This document shows positions 25,554 through 63,521 of a stretch of DNA of 64,000 nt, one piece after another. The DNA lies in NCBI RefSeq assembly GCF_000296405.1, contig NZ_JH815195.1, positions 253,023 through 317,022 of the forward strand. Reading direction: 5' to 3'. Origin of the DNA: Corynebacterium otitidis ATCC 51513 (GTDB lineage: Bacteria; Actinomycetota; Actinomycetes; Mycobacteriales; Mycobacteriaceae). The position numbers and the translations under genes are program-made. The notes beneath the pieces are model-generated. The model ran no database searches. It had not been told where the DNA came from and saw only the letters and a list, made by a program, of their open reading frames with translations. The first letter of the stretch is position 1; each line of letters starts with the position of its first letter.

Positions 25554-26156
25554 CTACTTGCGCGCGGCGGCGTAGCGCTCGGCGGCGTCGTCCCAGTTGA
25601 AGACGTTCCACACGGCCTTCACGTAGTCGGCCTTGACGTTGTAGTACTGCAGGTAGTAGGCGTGCTCCCACATGTCGAGCAGGAGGATCGGGGCCAGGTC
25701 GATGCTCAGCTGGCCCTGCTGGTCGGTCATCTGCTCGACGACGAGGCGCTCGCCGATCTTGTCGTAGCCGAGCACCGCCCAGCCGGAGCCCTGCAGGCCC
25801 AGCGCCGCGGAGGTGAACTGGTCCTGGAACTTCTCGAACGAGCCGAAGTCGCGGTCGATCGCCTCGCCGAGCTCGCCGGTGGGCTTCCCGCCGCCGTTCG
25901 GGGAGAGGTTCTTCCAGAAGATCGAGTGGTTGGTGTGCCCGCCGAGGTTGAACGCGAGGTTCTTCGACAGCGCCCGGATCTGGTCCGGGTTGGTGCCCTC
26001 CTCGCGGGCCTTCTCCAGCGCCTCCAGGGCGGCGTTGGCGCCCTGGACGTAGGTGTTGTGGTGCTTGTCGTGGTGGATGCGCATGATCTCGCCGGAGATG
26101 TGCGGCTCGAGCGCGTCGTAGTCGTAGGGCAGGTCGGGCAGCTCGTAGACGGCCAT
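25554..26156 (-). CDS. sodA: Superoxide dismutase, Mn/Fe type
   Basis: 200 residues. Metal ligands are His in MRIHHDKHH (about 25-33), His in [10 protein letters not shown] (about 72-81), and Asp and His in [14 protein letters not shown] (about 158-171). [13 protein letters not shown] and [11 protein letters not shown] support the family. It dismutates superoxide to H2O2 and O2 in the cytoplasm. Mn is the more likely metal in corynebacteria, but the sequence alone does not settle it. AGGAAGGA upstream supports the start. A perfect -10 (TATAAT, minus strand 26353-26358) lies about 200 bases upstream, giving a long leader. It ends in a strong terminator. Confidence 0.95.
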
Positions 26157-26751
26157 CGCTCTACCAGTCCTTCCTAAGGTTGCTTGAGGCGCCGCCGCCG
26201 AAAAGCCCGGCGGCGGGTCGAACAGGTCTGGATCGCCCGGCAGTGTGCGTTGGGCGGTTGCCGGCCGCCGGTAACTGCGGCGGCCGCGTGCCCCCGGGGC
26301 GCTCGTACCCGCCCCGGATCGTCAGGGTTAATCCGCGCGATCCTTGGCCGCGATTATAACGTGAGCGGCGGCTCGCATACGTGAGATAGCGCACGTCAAT
26401 AGCGGCGCCTCACTTCCCTTTTCGAAGGGAGGGGCGCCGGCGCGCGTCCCGGGCCGCCGGTCGGCGAGCGCGGGGTACGAGTCCCGCTGACCTGTTCTCT
26501 GCCTCAAGATGGAAGGACTGCCCGATCCCGGCGGCCCGGGCGCCGACGAGGCACGTCTGGCGTGCGCTCGCCCGAAGTATAGGCATGGAAACGGAGAGAC
26601 CGCAACTTATAAGTTCGTCTACCCGAACTTCTCGGGCGCGGGCGCGGCGGCGCGCCCGGGGGCGCTCGCGGCTAGGGATAGGTCCCGGCCCCGGTAGGTT
26701 TAAGGGGCACAACCCGCGCAGCGTTCGATTGGAAAGGTGGCACGACCGCAC
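26157..26751. other. Regulatory gap between sodA and galE
   Basis: Nearly 600 bases with no credible gene. It holds a perfect TATAAT (minus strand, 26353-26358) for sodA next to two ACGTGAG direct repeats (26359-26366, 26380-26386). A hairpin GGCGCC...GGCGCC with inner CTTCCCTT/AAGGGAG spans 26404-26438. A cluster of AAGTT/AACTT palindromes occurs at 26604-26630. galE promoter elements probably lie in the AT-richer part 26575-26640. Confidence 0.5.
26604..26630. promoter_or_regulatory. Overlapping palindromes upstream of galE (candidate operator)
   Basis: AACTTATAAGTT (26604-26615) overlaps AAGTTCG-N6-CGAACTT (26611-26630). Both are perfect inverted repeats sharing one arm, about 120 bases before galE. 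The regulator is not known. Confidence 0.5.
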
Positions 26752-41968: not shown

Positions 41969-42004
41969 GCCGGGGAGGCGCCCCTCGAGGGGCGCCTCCC
42001 CGGC
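41969..42004 (+). terminator. 36-bp perfect palindrome with T-rich 3' flank
   Basis: Every base from 41969 to 42004 pairs with its mirror (18 + 18), centred on TCGA. TTTCTT follows on the plus strand, giving an intrinsic-terminator look in that direction. It lies between the divergent doxX and nrdI starts, where no plus-strand gene ends nearby. In doxX mRNA it would fold in the 5' leader. Confidence 0.55.
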
Positions 42005-42116
42005 TTTCTTAAAGCCTCCTTATCAAGGCTAGCGCCGCCCGGCGCACCCCGCCACGACCCGCGGGCCGGCCCCCGCCGCGCGTCGGGCTGGCGCCACCCC
42101 CCGAAAGTTCATTGCA

Positions 42117-42145
42117 TTGGACTTTTAAGATTCTTACGACATATC
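42117..42145 (+). promoter_or_regulatory. nrdI-nrdF promoter
   Basis: TTGGAC (42117-42122), a 17-base spacer and CATATC (42140-42145). The start is expected near 42152, about 47 bases before the TTG start. No convincing pair of NrdR boxes was found. Confidence 0.55.
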
Positions 42146-42198: not shown

Positions 42199-42684
42199 TT
42201 GACCGCGAAGGACGAGGCGCCGGGCAGGGGCCCGGCGCCGGTCGTGGAGATCCCGCCGGAGGAGTCGCCGAGGGTCGTGTACTTCTCCAGCGCGAGCGAG
42301 AACACCCGCCGCTTCGTCGAGAAGATCGGCATCCCGGCCGCGCGCATCCCGCTGCGCCCCAAGGTCGAGGGCATGATCCGGGTCTCGCGCCCGTTCGTGC
42401 TCATCCTGCCCACCTACGGCGGCGGCTCCCGGCGCCGCGCCGTGCCGAAGCAGGTCATCGCGTTCCTCAACGACGAGACCAACCGCTCGCTCATCCGCGG
42501 GGTGATCACCAGCGGGAACCGCAACTTCGGCGCCGACTACTGCATCGCCGGGCCGATCGTCGCCGCGAAGTGCGGCGTACCGGAGCTCTACCGCTTCGAG
42601 CTGCTCGGCACGAGCCGCGACGTCGAGCGGGTGCGCAACGGCATCGAGCGCTTCTTCGCCGAGGGCGCCCCCGGCGCGAGCTAG
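42199..42684 (+). CDS. nrdI: NrdI flavodoxin-like activase of ribonucleotide reductase
   Basis: 161 residues from the TTG at 42199, set by GGAGAGGAG; an in-frame ATG at 42112 lies inside the promoter. Flavodoxin-like NrdI with FMN loop [19 protein letters not shown] (about 25-43), the conserved PTYGGG (about 71-76), [20 protein letters not shown] (about 83-102), [11 protein letters not shown] (about 106-116) and [13 protein letters not shown] near the end. NrdI delivers an oxidant to NrdF so that the tyrosyl radical, or in class Ie the DOPA cofactor, can form. It sits 97 bases upstream of nrdF; no nrdH or nrdE accompanies it. Confidence 0.92.
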
Positions 42685-42781
42685 CGCCCCAAGACTCTCC
42701 CCCAACAGACCCCACGTCCCACCTGCCGCCTCGGCTCGGCGCCGCGGCCGCAGGCGGGGCGACCTCACAGAAAGGACCGCG

Positions 42782-43801
42782 ATGAACCCGAGCCCCCGCA
42801 ACCCGCTCGCCGAGATCTCCATTACGCCGCCGGAGTTCCGGCGCCAGCCGGAGGGCAAGATGCGCCCGATCAACTGGAACCGCGTCGAGGACGAGAAGGA
42901 CCTCGAGGTGTGGAGTCGACTGACGTCGAACTTCTGGCTGCCGGAGAAGGTGCCGCTCGCCAACGACCTGCCCGATTGGAAGCGGCTCTCAGACATCGAG
43001 CGCCGCCAGACGATCCGGGTGTTCACCGGGCTCACGCTGCTCGACACGGTGCAGGCGACCGTGGGCGAGGTCTCCCAGATCGCCGACGGGATGACCGAGC
43101 ACGAGCAGGCCGTCTACACCAACATCGCGTTCATGCAGTCGGTGCACGCCCGCTCGTACTCGTCGGTGTTCTCGACTCTGACATCCACCCCGGAGATCGA
43201 CGAGGCCTACCGCTGGGCGGTGGACAACGACGAGCTCCAGGCGCGGGCGCGCGCGGTCATGGTGCACTACGTCGGCGACGACCCGCTCAAGCGCAAGGCC
43301 TCCGCGACGCTGTTGTCCTCGCTGCTGCTCTACGCCGGGTTCTACCTACCGCTGCACTTCGCGGCGCGCGGCCGGCTCACCAACACCGCCGACCTCGTGC
43401 GGCTCATCCTCCGCGACAAGGCCGTGCACGGCTACTACTCGGGCTACAAGTTCCAGCGCGGCCTCGAGCGCCACGAGGAGCGCCGCGGGGAGCTCGAGGA
43501 CTTCGTCGGTAACCTCCTAGAGCGGCTCTACGAGCTCGAGATGGCCTACTCCGGCCCGCTCTACGAGCCGCTGGGCATGGCCGACGACGTCGCCGTCTTC
43601 GTGCGCTACAACGCGAACAAGGCGATGCAGAACCTCGGCCAGCCCGAGCCCTTCACGCCTAAGGAGACCGAGGTGCGCCCGGAGATCCTCACCGCGCTCG
43701 CGCCCGGCTCGGACGAGAACCACGACTTCTTCTCCGGCTCGGGCTCCTCGTACGTCATCGGCCGCGCGGAGGACACCGCCGACGAGGACTGGGACTTCTA
43801 G
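42782..43801 (+). CDS. nrdF: Ribonucleotide reductase R2 subunit NrdF with QSK ligand set (class Ie, metal-free type)
   Basis: 339 residues, R2 fold. The C-terminal DEDWDF tail that docks to NrdE is intact. In class Ib NrdF six residues bind two metals. Here Asp88 (LTLLDTVQ), His122 (SVHARSY) and His216 (AVHGYY) remain, but the three Glu positions are Gln119 (FMQSVH), Ser179 (TLLSSLLLYAGF) and Lys213 (ILRDKAVH). Codons at 43136, 43316 and 43418 confirm this. The radical-site tyrosine is kept as Tyr126. Gln-Ser-Lys replacement defines one of the two known variants of class Ie R2 proteins, which use a DOPA radical without metal. AGAAAGGA sets the start. nrdI is upstream. It should supply the radical for NrdE, which is encoded outside the window. 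Confidence 0.92.
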   Translation: MNPSPRNPLAEISITPPEFRRQPEGKMRPINWNRVEDEKDLEVWSRLTSNFWLPEKVPLANDLPDWKRLSDIERRQTIRVFTGLTLLDTVQATVGEVSQIADGMTEHEQAVYTNIAFMQSVHARSYSSVFSTLTSTPEIDEAYRWAVDNDELQARARAVMVHYVGDDPLKRKASATLLSSLLLYAGFYLPLHFAARGRLTNTADLVRLILRDKAVHGYYSGYKFQRGLERHEERRGELEDFVGNLLERLYELEMAYSGPLYEPLGMADDVAVFVRYNANKAMQNLGQPEPFTPKETEVRPEILTALAPGSDENHDFFSGSGSSYVIGRAEDTADEDWDF

Positions 43802-59775: not shown

Positions 59776-60690
59776 ATGCTTGCCAACACCAATGCCGGGG
59801 GGCGCGCCGCCTCCCTCGCCCGCCTGTTCGCAGTCCTCGCCGCGCTGGCGGCGCTCGTTAGCGTCCTGGTCGCCTGCTCGAACTCCGAGGAGGAATCCAC
59901 CGAGGGCGAGGCCACCACCTCCGAAAACGCCGGCGACGAGCCGCGCGTCGTGGCGCTCGACTGGCGCTACGAGGAAATCCTCGTCGACCTCGGCATCGAG
60001 CCGGTCGGCATCGCCGAGATCGGCGACTCCAAGCTCCCGCCGACCCTCGAGGGCAAGATCTCCGAGGATGTCGAGTCCGTCGGCCAGGCGAAGCAGCCGA
60101 ACCTCGAGGTCATCGAGTCGCTCGAGCCGGACCTCATCCTCGCGAGCCCGACCCGGCACGCCGATATCCTCGACACGCTCGAGGGGATCGCCGACACCGA
60201 GGCCTACGACGACTCCACCTTCGAGGCCGTCCTCGACTCCGTCGACGAGATCGCCGCGAAGGTCGGCAAGGAGGACGAGGCTAAGGAGATCCGCGAGCGG
60301 ATCGAGTCGAAGATCGAGCAGGCCTCCCAGGTCGTCGAGCCGGGCACCCGCGCCGCGGTCATCGGCTGGACCGACAACACCCTTTATACCTGGGTGCGCG
60401 AGTCCTTCCCGGGCTCCCTGCTCGAGGCCGTGGGCTACGAGTACGGCTACGACGGCGAGAAGTCCAACATCGAGTCGAAGACCGACGTCGCGGAGCTCAC
60501 CGGCGACAAGCTGCCGGACATGAACCTCGACATCATGTACCTCTACAACGACCAGGAGGGCTTCCGCTCCTCCCCGTGGGCCGACGTCGTGGACAACGTC
60601 GTCGACGTGGACCAGGACGTGTGGTCCCGCGCCCGTGGCACCCTGTCGGCGGAGGCCATGCTCGACCAGATCATCGAAGAAAACTCCTAA
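59776..60690 (+). CDS. Iron-siderophore ABC transporter substrate-binding lipoprotein (CiuA/FecB-like)
   Basis: 304 residues. Lipoprotein signal with lipobox LVAC at Cys34, followed by an acidic linker. The class III binding-protein fold is recognised from RVVALDWRYEEILVDLGIEP (about 56-75), KQPNLEVIESLEPDLILAS (about 111-129) and the C-terminal SSPWADVVDNV. It captures ferric siderophore for the two permeases and ATPase encoded next. The order matches ciuABCD(E) of C. diphtheriae. Probably a leaderless transcript. The next ATG follows the stop directly. Confidence 0.9.
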   Translation: MLANTNAGGRAASLARLFAVLAALAALVSVLVACSNSEEESTEGEATTSENAGDEPRVVALDWRYEEILVDLGIEPVGIAEIGDSKLPPTLEGKISEDVESVGQAKQPNLEVIESLEPDLILASPTRHADILDTLEGIADTEAYDDSTFEAVLDSVDEIAAKVGKEDEAKEIRERIESKIEQASQVVEPGTRAAVIGWTDNTLYTWVRESFPGSLLEAVGYEYGYDGEKSNIESKTDVAELTGDKLPDMNLDIMYLYNDQEGFRSSPWADVVDNVVDVDQDVWSRARGTLSAEAMLDQIIEENS

Positions 60691-61713
60691 ATGACCGTCT
60701 CCCGAAAGTGGGGGATCGCCCTCGTCATCGGGGTCTCGGTCGCGGTAGTCGCCGCCACGTTCGCGTGGCGGCTGCTGCGCGTCGAGGGCCCGGAGAGCGC
60801 CCCCTGGCTCGAGGGGGAGGTCTTCGCAGTCACCCGCGACCGCCTCATCGCCGCGACCGTCATCGGCGCCGGCCTGGGCATCGCGGGTCTCCTGCTGCGT
60901 ACCGCGACCTCCAACCCCCTCGCGGACCCGAGTATCACCGGCGTGAACTCCGGCGCCTCGCTCGGCGCGGTGCTCGGCACGACCCTGCTCGGCGGCGCCA
61001 CCGGCGCGGCGATCCTGCCCGGCTCGCTCATCGGCGCGAGCATCGCCATCGCCATCACCGTGGGCATCGGGCTGCGCGGCCACGTCGCGGACCCCTCCGG
61101 GGCGATCATCGTGCAGCGCATGGTGCTCCTCGGCATGGCGGTCTCCGCGCTGTTTAGCGCCCTGACCTCGATCGTGCTCGTCCTCGACGAGGCACAGCTC
61201 GCCACCGTGCTCTCGTGGCTCTCCGGGCGGCTCGGCGGGGTGGGCCTCGACGACCTTATCCCCGCGATCGTCGCGCTTCTCGTCGTCGCCCCGCTCGTCA
61301 TCGCGGGCGCGCGCGGCCTCGACACGCTCGCCGCGGGCGACCTCGTGGCGAGCTCCGTGGGCGCGGACCCGCGCCGGCTGCGCATCGGCGCGGTGAGCGC
61401 CGCGGTCGTGCTCGTTGCCAGCGGCGTCGCCGCCGCCGGGCCCATCGGCTTCCTCGGGCTCATGGCCGCGGTGGTCGTGCACCGGGTGTGCGGGCCGCGC
61501 CACCGCATCGGCATCGTCGTCGCGGCCGCGGTCGGGGCCGCGGTCCTCATCGTGTCCGACTCGATCGCCCAGGCGCTCTGGGCCCCCGCGGAGACCCCCG
61601 TCGGCATCGTCACCGCGCTCGCGGGCTTCCCGCTGTTGCTCTGGGGCATCCGAAACCTCACGCCGAAGAGGCCCACGGCCGCCGCGGCGGCGCCGGGAGG
61701 TGAGCGCCCGTGA
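60691..61713 (+). CDS. FecCD-family iron-siderophore permease 1
   Basis: 340 residues with about 9-10 membrane helices. Typical BtuC/FecCD blocks: RLIAATVIGAGLGIAGLLLR (about 51-70), TSNPLADPSITGVNSGASLG (about 73-92) and the coupling-helix region AGPIGFLGLMAAVVVHRVCG (about 249-268), where the usual GxIxFVGLxxPHxxR is slightly altered (VVHR in place of PHxxR). It starts at the base after the binding-protein stop and overlaps the next permease by four bases. Confidence 0.92.
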   Translation: MTVSRKWGIALVIGVSVAVVAATFAWRLLRVEGPESAPWLEGEVFAVTRDRLIAATVIGAGLGIAGLLLRTATSNPLADPSITGVNSGASLGAVLGTTLLGGATGAAILPGSLIGASIAIAITVGIGLRGHVADPSGAIIVQRMVLLGMAVSALFSALTSIVLVLDEAQLATVLSWLSGRLGGVGLDDLIPAIVALLVVAPLVIAGARGLDTLAAGDLVASSVGADPRRLRIGAVSAAVVLVASGVAAAGPIGFLGLMAAVVVHRVCGPRHRIGIVVAAAVGAAVLIVSDSIAQALWAPAETPVGIVTALAGFPLLLWGIRNLTPKRPTAAAAAPGGERP

Positions 61714-62708
61714 CTCCGAAGAACGCCGCCGCGGGCCGTGCCCGCTTCGTCGCCGTGTTCGTTGGACTTCTCATCGGCCTGGCGGCCGCCGCGGTGCTCG
61801 GCATGGCGATCGGCGCGGTGACCATGTCGCCGGCCGAGGTGCTCTCCGGGCTCGTCGACGGCGACTCGCTCATCTGGCGCTACCGCGCCCCGCGGATCCT
61901 CGTCGGCGTCGTCGCCGGGGCGTCCATGGCGGTGGCCGGCGCGCTGCTGCAGTCGGCGCTGCGCAACCCGCTCGCCGCGCCCGACACCGTCGGCATCACC
62001 GCCGGCGGCGGGCTCGCCGCCGTGGCCGCACTGCTCGGGGTGGGCACGGTCCCCGCCTCGCAGCTCACCGCGGTCGCGCTCGTCGGCGCCCTCATCGGCG
62101 CGGTGGTGGTGTTCCTGCTCGCCGGCCGCGGCATCGCCGACCCGGTGCGCCTCACGCTCACCGGCGTGACGGTCTCTGTGGTGTTCTCCGCGCTCACGCA
62201 GCTCCTGCTCGTACGCGCCGCCCCCGAGGCCGGCGCGGCGATGACGTGGCTGCGCGGCTCGCTCTACGCCCGCACCGTCGCCGACGCGGAGATCGTCGCG
62301 CCGTTCGTCGCGCTCGGCGTCGTCGCCGTCATCGTCGTCGCCCACCACCTCGACATGCTCGGCCTCGACGACTCCTCGATGCGCGGGGTCGGCGTGAGCC
62401 CCCTGGCGTGGCGCGTCATCGCCGTCGGGCTCGCCGTGACGCTCGGCGCCGCGGCCGTCGCCGCCGCCGGGGTGCTCGGCTTCGCCGGGCTCATCGTGCC
62501 CCACGCGGCGCGCATGCTCGTCGGCTCGACGATGCTGCGCCAGGTGCCCGTCGCCGCGGTCGGCGGCGCGGCGCTCGTCGTCGTGTGCGACGCGATCGGG
62601 CGCTGGGCCTTCGCCCCCACCGAGATCCCCGTCGGCGCGCTCATCGCCGTGGTCGGGGCGCCCTACTTCATCTACCTGCTCCTCAAGATGACGAAAGTGA
62701 AGGACTAA
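61710..62708 (+). CDS. FecCD-family iron-siderophore permease 2
   Basis: 332 residues, GTG start overlapping the previous stop (GTGA). About 9-10 membrane helices, with YRAPRILVGVVAGASMAVAG (about 59-78), LLQSALRNPLAAPDTVGITA (about 80-99) and the coupling motif GVLGFAGLIVPHAARMLVG (about 254-272) in full canonical form. It pairs with permease 1 as a heterodimer. Six bases separate it from the ATPase gene. Confidence 0.93.
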   Translation: MTPKNAAAGRARFVAVFVGLLIGLAAAAVLGMAIGAVTMSPAEVLSGLVDGDSLIWRYRAPRILVGVVAGASMAVAGALLQSALRNPLAAPDTVGITAGGGLAAVAALLGVGTVPASQLTAVALVGALIGAVVVFLLAGRGIADPVRLTLTGVTVSVVFSALTQLLLVRAAPEAGAAMTWLRGSLYARTVADAEIVAPFVALGVVAVIVVAHHLDMLGLDDSSMRGVGVSPLAWRVIAVGLAVTLGAAAVAAAGVLGFAGLIVPHAARMLVGSTMLRQVPVAAVGGAALVVVCDAIGRWAFAPTEIPVGALIAVVGAPYFIYLLLKMTKVKD

Positions 62709-62714
62709 ATAGCC

Positions 62715-63521
62715 ATGACGACCGGCCTGTCCTGCCGGGGGCTTTGCGTCGGATACGGCGGCCCCGAGATTCTCCACGACGTGGACCTCGACATCGAGCC
62801 GGGGAAGGTCACCGCGCTCATCGGCCCCAACGGCTGCGGCAAGTCGACGCTCCTTCGCGCGCTCGGCCGCCAGCAGAAGCCCACCTCCGGGGAGATCACC
62901 CTCGACGGGGAGCCGGCCTCGGCGCTCTCGGCGCGGGCTTTTGCCCGACAGCTGTCCTTTTTGCCGCAGGACCCCGCCGCGCCCGACGGCGTCACCGTGC
63001 GGGAGGTCATCGGCTATGGCCGCTACCCCTACACCGGCGCGTTCGCCGCGCTGCGCCGCGCCGACCACGAGGCGGTCGCCACCGCCGCCGAGCAGGCGGG
63101 CATCTCCCACCTGCTCGACGAGCCGGCCCGCGCGCTCTCCGGCGGGCAGCGCCAGCGCGTGTTCATCGCCATGACGCTTGCCCAAGACACCCCGATCGTT
63201 TTGCTCGACGAGCCGACGACCTACCTCGACCCGGCGCACCAGCTCGCGATCCTCGACCTCGTCGCGACCCTCAACGAGGCGGGCAAGACGATCGTCATGG
63301 TCGTCCACGACATGGCCCACGCCGCGCGCTTCGCCGACCGGGTCGTCGCGATGGTCGACGGCGCCATCGTCGCCGACGGCGAGTCCGAGGAGATCATGAC
63401 CGCCGCGCTCATCAGCCGGGTCTTCAACGTCGAGTGCCTCACCGTCACCGACCCGAAGACCGGCCGGGAGCTGCCCGTGCCCTACCACAACCTCGCCCTC
63501 GTGCGAGACCGCGTCGCGTAG
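62715..63521 (+). CDS. Iron-siderophore ABC transporter ATPase (FepC-like)
   Basis: 268 residues. Walker A GPNGCGKST (37-45), Q-loop in SFLPQDP, ABC signature ALSGGQRQRVFIAM (about 139-152), Walker B IVLLDEPTTYLD (about 160-171) and the switch His in MVVHDMAHAAR (about 193-203). It powers the two FecCD permeases. Downstream an 83-base gap leads to the biosynthetic gene with its own ribosome site. Confidence 0.94.
   Translation: MTTGLSCRGLCVGYGGPEILHDVDLDIEPGKVTALIGPNGCGKSTLLRALGRQQKPTSGEITLDGEPASALSARAFARQLSFLPQDPAAPDGVTVREVIGYGRYPYTGAFAALRRADHEAVATAAEQAGISHLLDEPARALSGGQRQRVFIAMTLAQDTPIVLLDEPTTYLDPAHQLAILDLVATLNEAGKTIVMVVHDMAHAARFADRVVAMVDGAIVADGESEEIMTAALISRVFNVECLTVTDPKTGRELPVPYHNLALVRDRVA

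Follow-up and report, generated by a model that had tools for sequence, protein, structure and literature searches.

Described class Ie systems

Class Ie is the ribonucleotide reductase (RNR) subclass with a metal-free radical cofactor. The closest solved relative of the protein discussed here is R2-QSK from Gardnerella vaginalis (Bifidobacterium vaginale), for which structures of the unmodified and DOPA forms are available (8RAG/8RAH). Its active site is composed of D112, Q143, H146, Y150, S203, K237, and H240, with Q143, S203, and K237 replacing glutamates (John et al., 2025; PMC11846895). In this organism the protein is encoded in an nrdHIEF operon together with its own R1, and it belongs to the only class I RNR there (PMC11846895). 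A second group of DOPA-type R2 proteins is represented by the R2-VPK of Mesoplasma florum (6GP2, 8BT3), Aerococcus urinae (6EBO), and Streptococcus pyogenes. These have Val and Pro where the QSK proteins have Gln and Ser, and their genes are arranged as nrdFIE (PMC11846895). The M. florum radical-state paper ties W52, Q91, Y163, L183, F187, and a tail Tyr to oxidant gating and radical transfer.

The conditions under which class Ie enzymes are used inside cells were described as not understood in a 2021 review, which also states, citing Do et al. (2019), that the S. pyogenes class Ie RNR is repressed by increased Fe and Mn (PMC8463856). In Corynebacterium diphtheriae, an nrdI-nrdF2 pair (DIP1923-1924) is listed as MntR-regulated along with mntABCD, sodA, DIP2262, and piuB (PMC13001254, Table 3); Peng et al. 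(2021) is one source of that list. A word search of the main text of PMC11846895 found no mention of MntR, DtxR, or any other regulator, and the covered passages of PMC13001254 and PMC9936198 hold no tie between MntR and class Ie, with the subscription literature lying mostly outside this coverage.

A predicted QSK-type R2 in the window

The window is a 64,000 nucleotide stretch of the Corynebacterium otitidis genome. On its forward strand an nrdF gene (42782..43801) runs from ATG to TAG and encodes a protein of 339 amino acids. The codons were read directly, and the first-pass annotation was right about the frame, the start and stop, and all the residues it named. Asp88 (GAC, 43043), His122 (CAC, 43145), and His216 (CAC, 43427) are kept and are equivalent to D112, H146, and H240 of 8RAG/8RAH. 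Of the four carboxylate metal ligands, three glutamates have been replaced, by Gln119 (CAG, 43136..43138), Ser179 (TCC, 43316..43318), and Lys213 (AAG, 43418..43420), which match Q143, S203, and K237 of 8RAG. Tyr126 (TAC, 43157..43159), equivalent to Y150 of 8RAG/8RAH, is the predicted DOPA/radical residue. The alignment to 8RAG/8RAH has no gaps through the active site (query residue 12 corresponds to chain residue 36, an offset of 24).

The R2 fold is recognized by PF00268 (E 2.1e-74), and both Pfam and NCBIfam assign the protein to the small-subunit family, the top-scoring model being one for class Ib. Among PDB sequences the best matches are 8RAG (E 1.9e-149) and 8RAH (2.1e-149) at about 500 bits; the chains that follow have Glu at the ligand positions and reach at most 440 bits. 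A structure predicted from a 24-row alignment (mean pLDDT 83.5) also has 8RAG as its top PDB fold match, at 64% identity. The C-terminal tail (residues 310-339, 43709..43798), which includes Tyr324 and is the predicted R1 docking and radical-relay element, is intact, and its low pLDDT is what a flexible tail would give. The radical-path residues W52, Q91, Y163, L183, F187, and Y324 were all found. Eight residues of the M. florum R2 (W52, D88, Q91, Y126, Y163, L183, F187, and K213) have identical residue numbers in the window R2e. The first-pass annotation had proposed M. florum, S. pyogenes, and A. urinae for comparison; these species do carry class Ie proteins, but of the VPK and not the QSK type (PMC11846895), at about 50% identity to the window protein. 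The Gardnerella protein is like the window protein in its seven active-site residues, its NrdI, and its intact tail. The class Ib NrdF proteins (that of the same genome, C1:646216, and that of Corynebacterium ammoniagenes, 1KGN) share the fold, the tail, a NrdI partner, and presumably the same R1, but unlike the window R2e they have four carboxylate ligands.

The residue set D-Q-H-Y-S-K-H was found in 81/81 proteins when the window NrdF was read with the best 80 of 376 relatives from a genome contig search, a sample that leans toward QSK because it was ranked by similarity to the window protein and one search peptide included K213. The same set occurs in 56/56 R2e genes from a sample of 121 Corynebacterium genomes. 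Since it is common to both sets of homologues, QSK is not the product of chance or decay. A 111-row tree parts 102 R2e rows from 9 R2b rows at a branch whose SH-aLRT support is 100%; this tree was made by a quick method, after near-identical Corynebacterium nrdIEF rows had been thinned, and contains no solved R2e. The window protein groups with other Corynebacterium solo nrdIF genes with weak support, as is the case for its placement within R2e as a whole. Every testable sequence feature thus supports the assignment to the QSK variant of class Ie: the ligand set, the Tyr, the NrdI partner, the position in the tree, the solved relatives 8RAG/8RAH, and the radical-path residues. By analogy with those relatives, the protein would carry out metal-free DOPA chemistry.

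Two other readings of the protein were weighed. A decayed or moonlighting R2 homologue, no longer driving ribonucleotide reduction, would fit the loss of three of four carboxylate ligands in a genome that has a complete class Ib enzyme, and a relative's copy does contain an in-frame TAG. This reading is very improbable given the shared seven residues, the kept radical path and tail, the GC3 of the gene (0.97), and the activity of the 64% identical QSK protein when DOPA-modified (PMC11846895); the first-pass annotation, which had called the fold and docking tail intact, was right that the gene is not decayed. The TAG-bearing copy (G027:C34:15991-16953) is a QSK nrdF with no palindrome of the kind described below in front of it, and is probably a decaying copy, or else reflects a sequencing error. 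Retention of metal through Asp88, His122, His216, and Gln119 could be proposed on the grounds that half of the ligand set remains. However, only trace Mn and Fe are present in the Gardnerella protein, which has the same residues, and the Mn1 position in its crystal is occupied by the Lys ammonium (PMC11846895), which makes metal binding extremely improbable. A foreign gene of odd composition was also considered and rejected: nrdF has a GC content of 0.68 and the window 0.72, and GC3 is 0.99 in the adjacent nrdI.

Gene layout and the predicted R1 partner

Upstream of nrdF on the same strand lies nrdI (42199..42684), encoding a flavodoxin-like activase (PF07972, E 7.1e-45; TIGR00333, E 6.1e-46). 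Its start is predicted to be a TTG that follows a GGAGAGGAG site, and 97 bases separate nrdI from nrdF. A consensus scan found one terminator-like hairpin (41969..42004, + strand; 0.5 expected), which may separate the nrdIF unit from the upstream gene. No nrdE lies beside the window nrdI-nrdF, making this a solo nrdIF pair. Solo layouts and R1 sharing have already been described for 104 nrdIF stretches (John et al., 2025; PMC11846895), and the window locus belongs to this kind. The C. diphtheriae nrdI-nrdF2 pair resembles it, and DIP1924 would be expected to be a QSK protein as well, because 36/36 nrdI-nrdF pairs without nrdE that were read in the genus are QSK.

The window genome (2.12 Mb, 6 contigs, 99.99% complete) contains two R2 genes, two nrdI genes, and one R1. 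The sole R1, NrdE, is encoded on contig C1 in a class Ib nrdH-nrdI-nrdE-nrdF operon whose NrdF (C1:646216) has D, E, H, Y, E, E, and H in the seven active-site columns (the EEE type). A dedicated R1 elsewhere in the genome was rejected, as there is only one PF02867 match at this completeness; a class II RNR was rejected for the reason that this match is the class Ib NrdE. While the presence of one R1 and two R2 is observed, R1 sharing is what the layout implies: because the only R1 sits in the class Ib operon, the window R2e would have to share NrdE with the class Ib NrdF. The first-pass annotation had concluded that the organism can make deoxynucleotides with a metal-independent reductase. 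The class Ie R2 behind this statement holds by sequence, but a complete class Ib nrdHIEF is also present and the R2e lacks a dedicated R1, in difference from the Gardnerella operon.

The same arrangement recurs in the genus. Among the matches listed, ranked by E-value, 55/121 Corynebacterium genomes have R2e (56 genes, all QSK) and 66/121 were counted as lacking it. One R1 match was found in 33/35 solo-type genomes (in G003 a fragment only), and two in G028 and G079; in the nrdIEF-type genomes two R1 were found in 20/20. An EEE NrdF, 77-100% identical to that of the window genome, is also present in 55/55 R2e genomes. All 58 class Ib NrdF copies that were read are EEE. Three of them are extra copies, a third, divergent EEE NrdF in each of G056, G051, and G012, with 68-72% identity to the window genome's class Ib NrdF. 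According to John et al. (2025), QSK is the only RNR in 40 Corynebacterium species (PMC11846895), whereas R2e genomes without an EEE NrdF numbered 0/55 in the 121-genome sample.

The constant presence of an EEE NrdF in R2e genomes would be in line with R2e working together with R2b and not instead of it, for instance by pairing with it in a mixed dimer or by modulating class Ib activity. Yet nrdI is present at 76/81 R2e loci (the window and the best 80 of 376; two of the five exceptions are cut or incomplete stretches) and many R2e units have their own R1, which suggests autonomy, and Gardnerella manages with its QSK enzyme as the only class I RNR (PMC11846895). Cooperation of this kind is therefore judged highly improbable. 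The tails of R2e and R2b from the same genome were also compared. In solo genomes their co-variation was 0.816 vs. 0.806 when shuffled (matched by 11/2000 shuffles), and in nrdIEF genomes it was matched by 223/2000 shuffles; the effect is too small and is confounded by relatedness.

A palindrome at R2e promoters

A palindrome, AAGTTCATTGCATTGGACTT (42105..42124), is found 74 bases upstream of the predicted nrdI start, at the edge of an AT-rich stretch. It resembles an MntR box, with 16/20 positions self-complementary and 13/14 consensus positions matched (p 0.01). The consensus, AASTWCR-N6-YGWASTT, recurred on reading of R2e promoters and its 14 positions were drawn by eye from those promoters themselves; the box is thus defined by comparison and is a candidate operator. 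Promoters were tested against Euler dinucleotide shuffles (100 each), with p ≤ 0.05 taken as a site. The promoter groups share genomes (the same assemblies stand behind L009 and L110, and behind L080 and L120), and their counts are not to be summed because several assemblies appear in two groups.

With this test, sites were found in 24/36 Corynebacterium solo R2e promoters (35 solo genomes and the second R2e of G073), while the remaining 12/36 had p > 0.05. All 20 Corynebacterium nrdIEF promoters, many of them near-identical, have a site, as do 24/32 nrdIEF and 12/16 solo loci of other genera and 2/5 named Corynebacterium solo loci. The class Ib promoters gave 1/21. In the five nrdIEF genomes that were scanned whole, the nrdI site is doubled, with 22 or 23 bases between the copies.

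In a class-wide search of 394 genomes, 29 loci outside the window were read and two of these were additional R2e genes, one without nrdI in its stretch and the other with a site identical to that of two Brevibacterium loci already used. As this gave no held-out promoters, the independent test was built on mntR promoters from genomes lacking R2e. A matrix was trained on 4 sites, picked by self-complementarity alone from the mntR promoters of 12 R2e-less genomes; two of the sites look like noise. The matrix scored p ≤ 0.05 in 22/36 Corynebacterium solo R2e promoters vs. 1/21 class Ib promoters, and p 0.01 at the window site. In the other groups the counts were 2/5 for the named Corynebacterium solo loci, 9/16 for other-genus solo, 8/32 for other-genus nrdIEF, and 8/20 for Corynebacterium nrdIEF. 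Between the window site and the mntR site in G066, 3/20 positions differ.

Control by a regulator other than MntR would leave the R2e functional, with expression that is constitutive or set by redox state, DtxR, or NrdR, and the palindrome a chance or unrelated feature. The 12/36 solo promoters below threshold are in its favor. Against this, neither an NrdR-box-like nor a DtxR-box-like site stands above shuffles at the window nrdI promoter (the best NrdR box is 8/16), and control by either regulator was rejected there. NrdR boxes at p ≤ 0.05 were found in 0/36 Corynebacterium solo R2e promoters vs. 20/21 class Ib promoters of the genus; the best NrdR-like site at the window genome's own class Ib promoter is 11/16. 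Outside Corynebacterium, NrdR boxes are common at R2e promoters (22/32 and 9/16).

The palindrome elsewhere and MntR-like repressors

Genome-wide counts do not set the palindrome apart. With one mismatch allowed, the window genome has 18 sites vs. 17 for a reversed-pattern control, which is no excess. With no mismatch, 14 relatives have 38 sites vs. 20; R2e promoters make up 18 of the 38, and the other 20 equal the control. The 15 genomes of other genera show no excess either (16 vs. 14, no mismatch). Since these numbers are not raised, the case for MntR rests on where the sites lie.

Several sites lie in front of genes for manganese or metal handling. In G005 (Corynebacterium tuberculostearicum) and G004 alike, the palindrome is 57 bases upstream of an MntR-like gene. 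In G003 it is located between an mntR-like and an mntA-like gene that diverge from each other, and it precedes an MntA-like gene in G050 and a metal-ABC ATPase in G076; the NCBIfam matches of these mntR- and metal-transporter-like genes are all below their cut-offs. MntA-like genes named by eye are likewise preceded by it in a Leucobacter and in Kocuria massiliensis. At mntR promoters the 14-position consensus reached p ≤ 0.05 in 9/12 R2e-less genomes and in 3/18 R2e-bearing ones, and the site in the mntR/mntA gap of the window genome is weak (11/14, p 0.04).

The only perfect (14/14) copy in the window genome, AAGTTCGTCTACCCGAACTT (26611..26630), is between sodA (25554-26156, - strand), about 450 bases away, and galE (26737, + strand), and is possibly a further MntR-type site. 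The window also has what reads by eye as an iron-siderophore-type ABC importer (59776-63521), made up of a substrate-binding protein, two permeases, and an ATPase.

Two DtxR-family genes are present in the window genome. One is DtxR, with Met and Cys as selectivity ligands, and the other is MntR-like, with Asp and Glu there; the compared positions presumably correspond to DtxR Met10 and Cys102. The MntR-like gene (C1:405681-406376) is divergent from an MntA-like gene and has MntR NF047407 as its best NCBIfam match, at 160 bits and below the cut-off of 350. The principle that such ligands separate Mn-type from DtxR selectivity is given in PMC9936198. Within 6 kb of the window R2e there is no MntR-like neighbor in its genome. 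In the Corynebacterium sample, an MntR-like gene lies at most 6 kb from R2e in 28/55 genomes (18/20 nrdIEF, 10/35 solo). Of the 81 loci made up of the window and the best 80 of 376 relatives, 32 have an MntR-like match in their flanks, four of these being edge fragments; Schaalia, Flaviflexus, Nesterenkonia, and Microbacterium are among the genera involved.

The MntR-like proteins beside R2e (L020-L083) have Asn at the DtxR Met10 position in 26/28 cases and Asp in 2/28, with close Corynebacterium relatives accounting for about 20 of these 28 rows. These proteins may prefer a different metal from that of housekeeping MntR. In two R2e-less genomes, G117 (C1:2370360) and G090 (C1:2844453), an MntR-like gene is located about 2.2 kb or less from a class Ib nrdE.

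For control by another regulator, then, speak the palindrome counts outside R2e promoters, which do not exceed the control, and the weakness of the window genome's own mntR/mntA site. Against it stand the recurrence of the palindrome at mntR-like, metal-transporter, and R2e promoters and hardly at class Ib promoters, the MntR-like genes near R2e in about half of the R2e genomes, and the MntR regulation of nrdI-nrdF2 in C. diphtheriae (PMC13001254). Non-MntR control is accordingly regarded as unlikely, if the most serious of the alternatives. From the promoter comparison, the neighboring genes, and the C. diphtheriae data, MntR repression of the window nrdIF and its use under manganese shortage are most likely. 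The first-pass annotation had suggested a use under both iron and manganese starvation imposed by hosts; the regulatory evidence, an MntR-type operator, points to manganese.

A proposed role in manganese starvation

In our assessment it is quite likely that the window locus encodes a manganese-starvation substitute R2, of the class Ie QSK type, which acts on a shared R1 and is controlled by MntR. The nrdI-nrdF unit (42199-43801) would supply the radical subunit and its activating flavoprotein. With manganese ample, Mn(II)-loaded MntR would bind the palindrome at 42105-42124 and repress nrdIF. Upon manganese depletion MntR would be released and R2e expressed, just when a di-manganese NrdF would fail. 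By homology to the Gardnerella and M. florum proteins, NrdI and oxygen would then provide an oxidant, and Tyr126 would be hydroxylated to DOPA and subsequently oxidized to the radical, with Lys213 and water standing in for the metal site. R1 would receive the radical by way of Trp52, Tyr324 in the tail, or both. In this way R2e would be an alternative radical generator for the NrdE that the class Ib NrdF serves.

For the family, the R2e-QSK operons of Actinomycetota probably form a conserved manganese-starvation module. Such a module would have an MntR-type operator and, in many genomes, a dedicated MntR-like repressor nearby, and would swap a metal-free R2 onto the R1 of the di-manganese R2; the Corynebacterium unit would lie outside the NrdR regulon. 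To the question of when class Ie enzymes are used in the cell, the layout of one R1 with two R2s and the promoter comparison offer a testable answer, namely that manganese shortage turns on R2e through MntR. In the genomes with a shared R1, a single R1 would work inside one cell with either kind of partner, metal-containing or metal-free.
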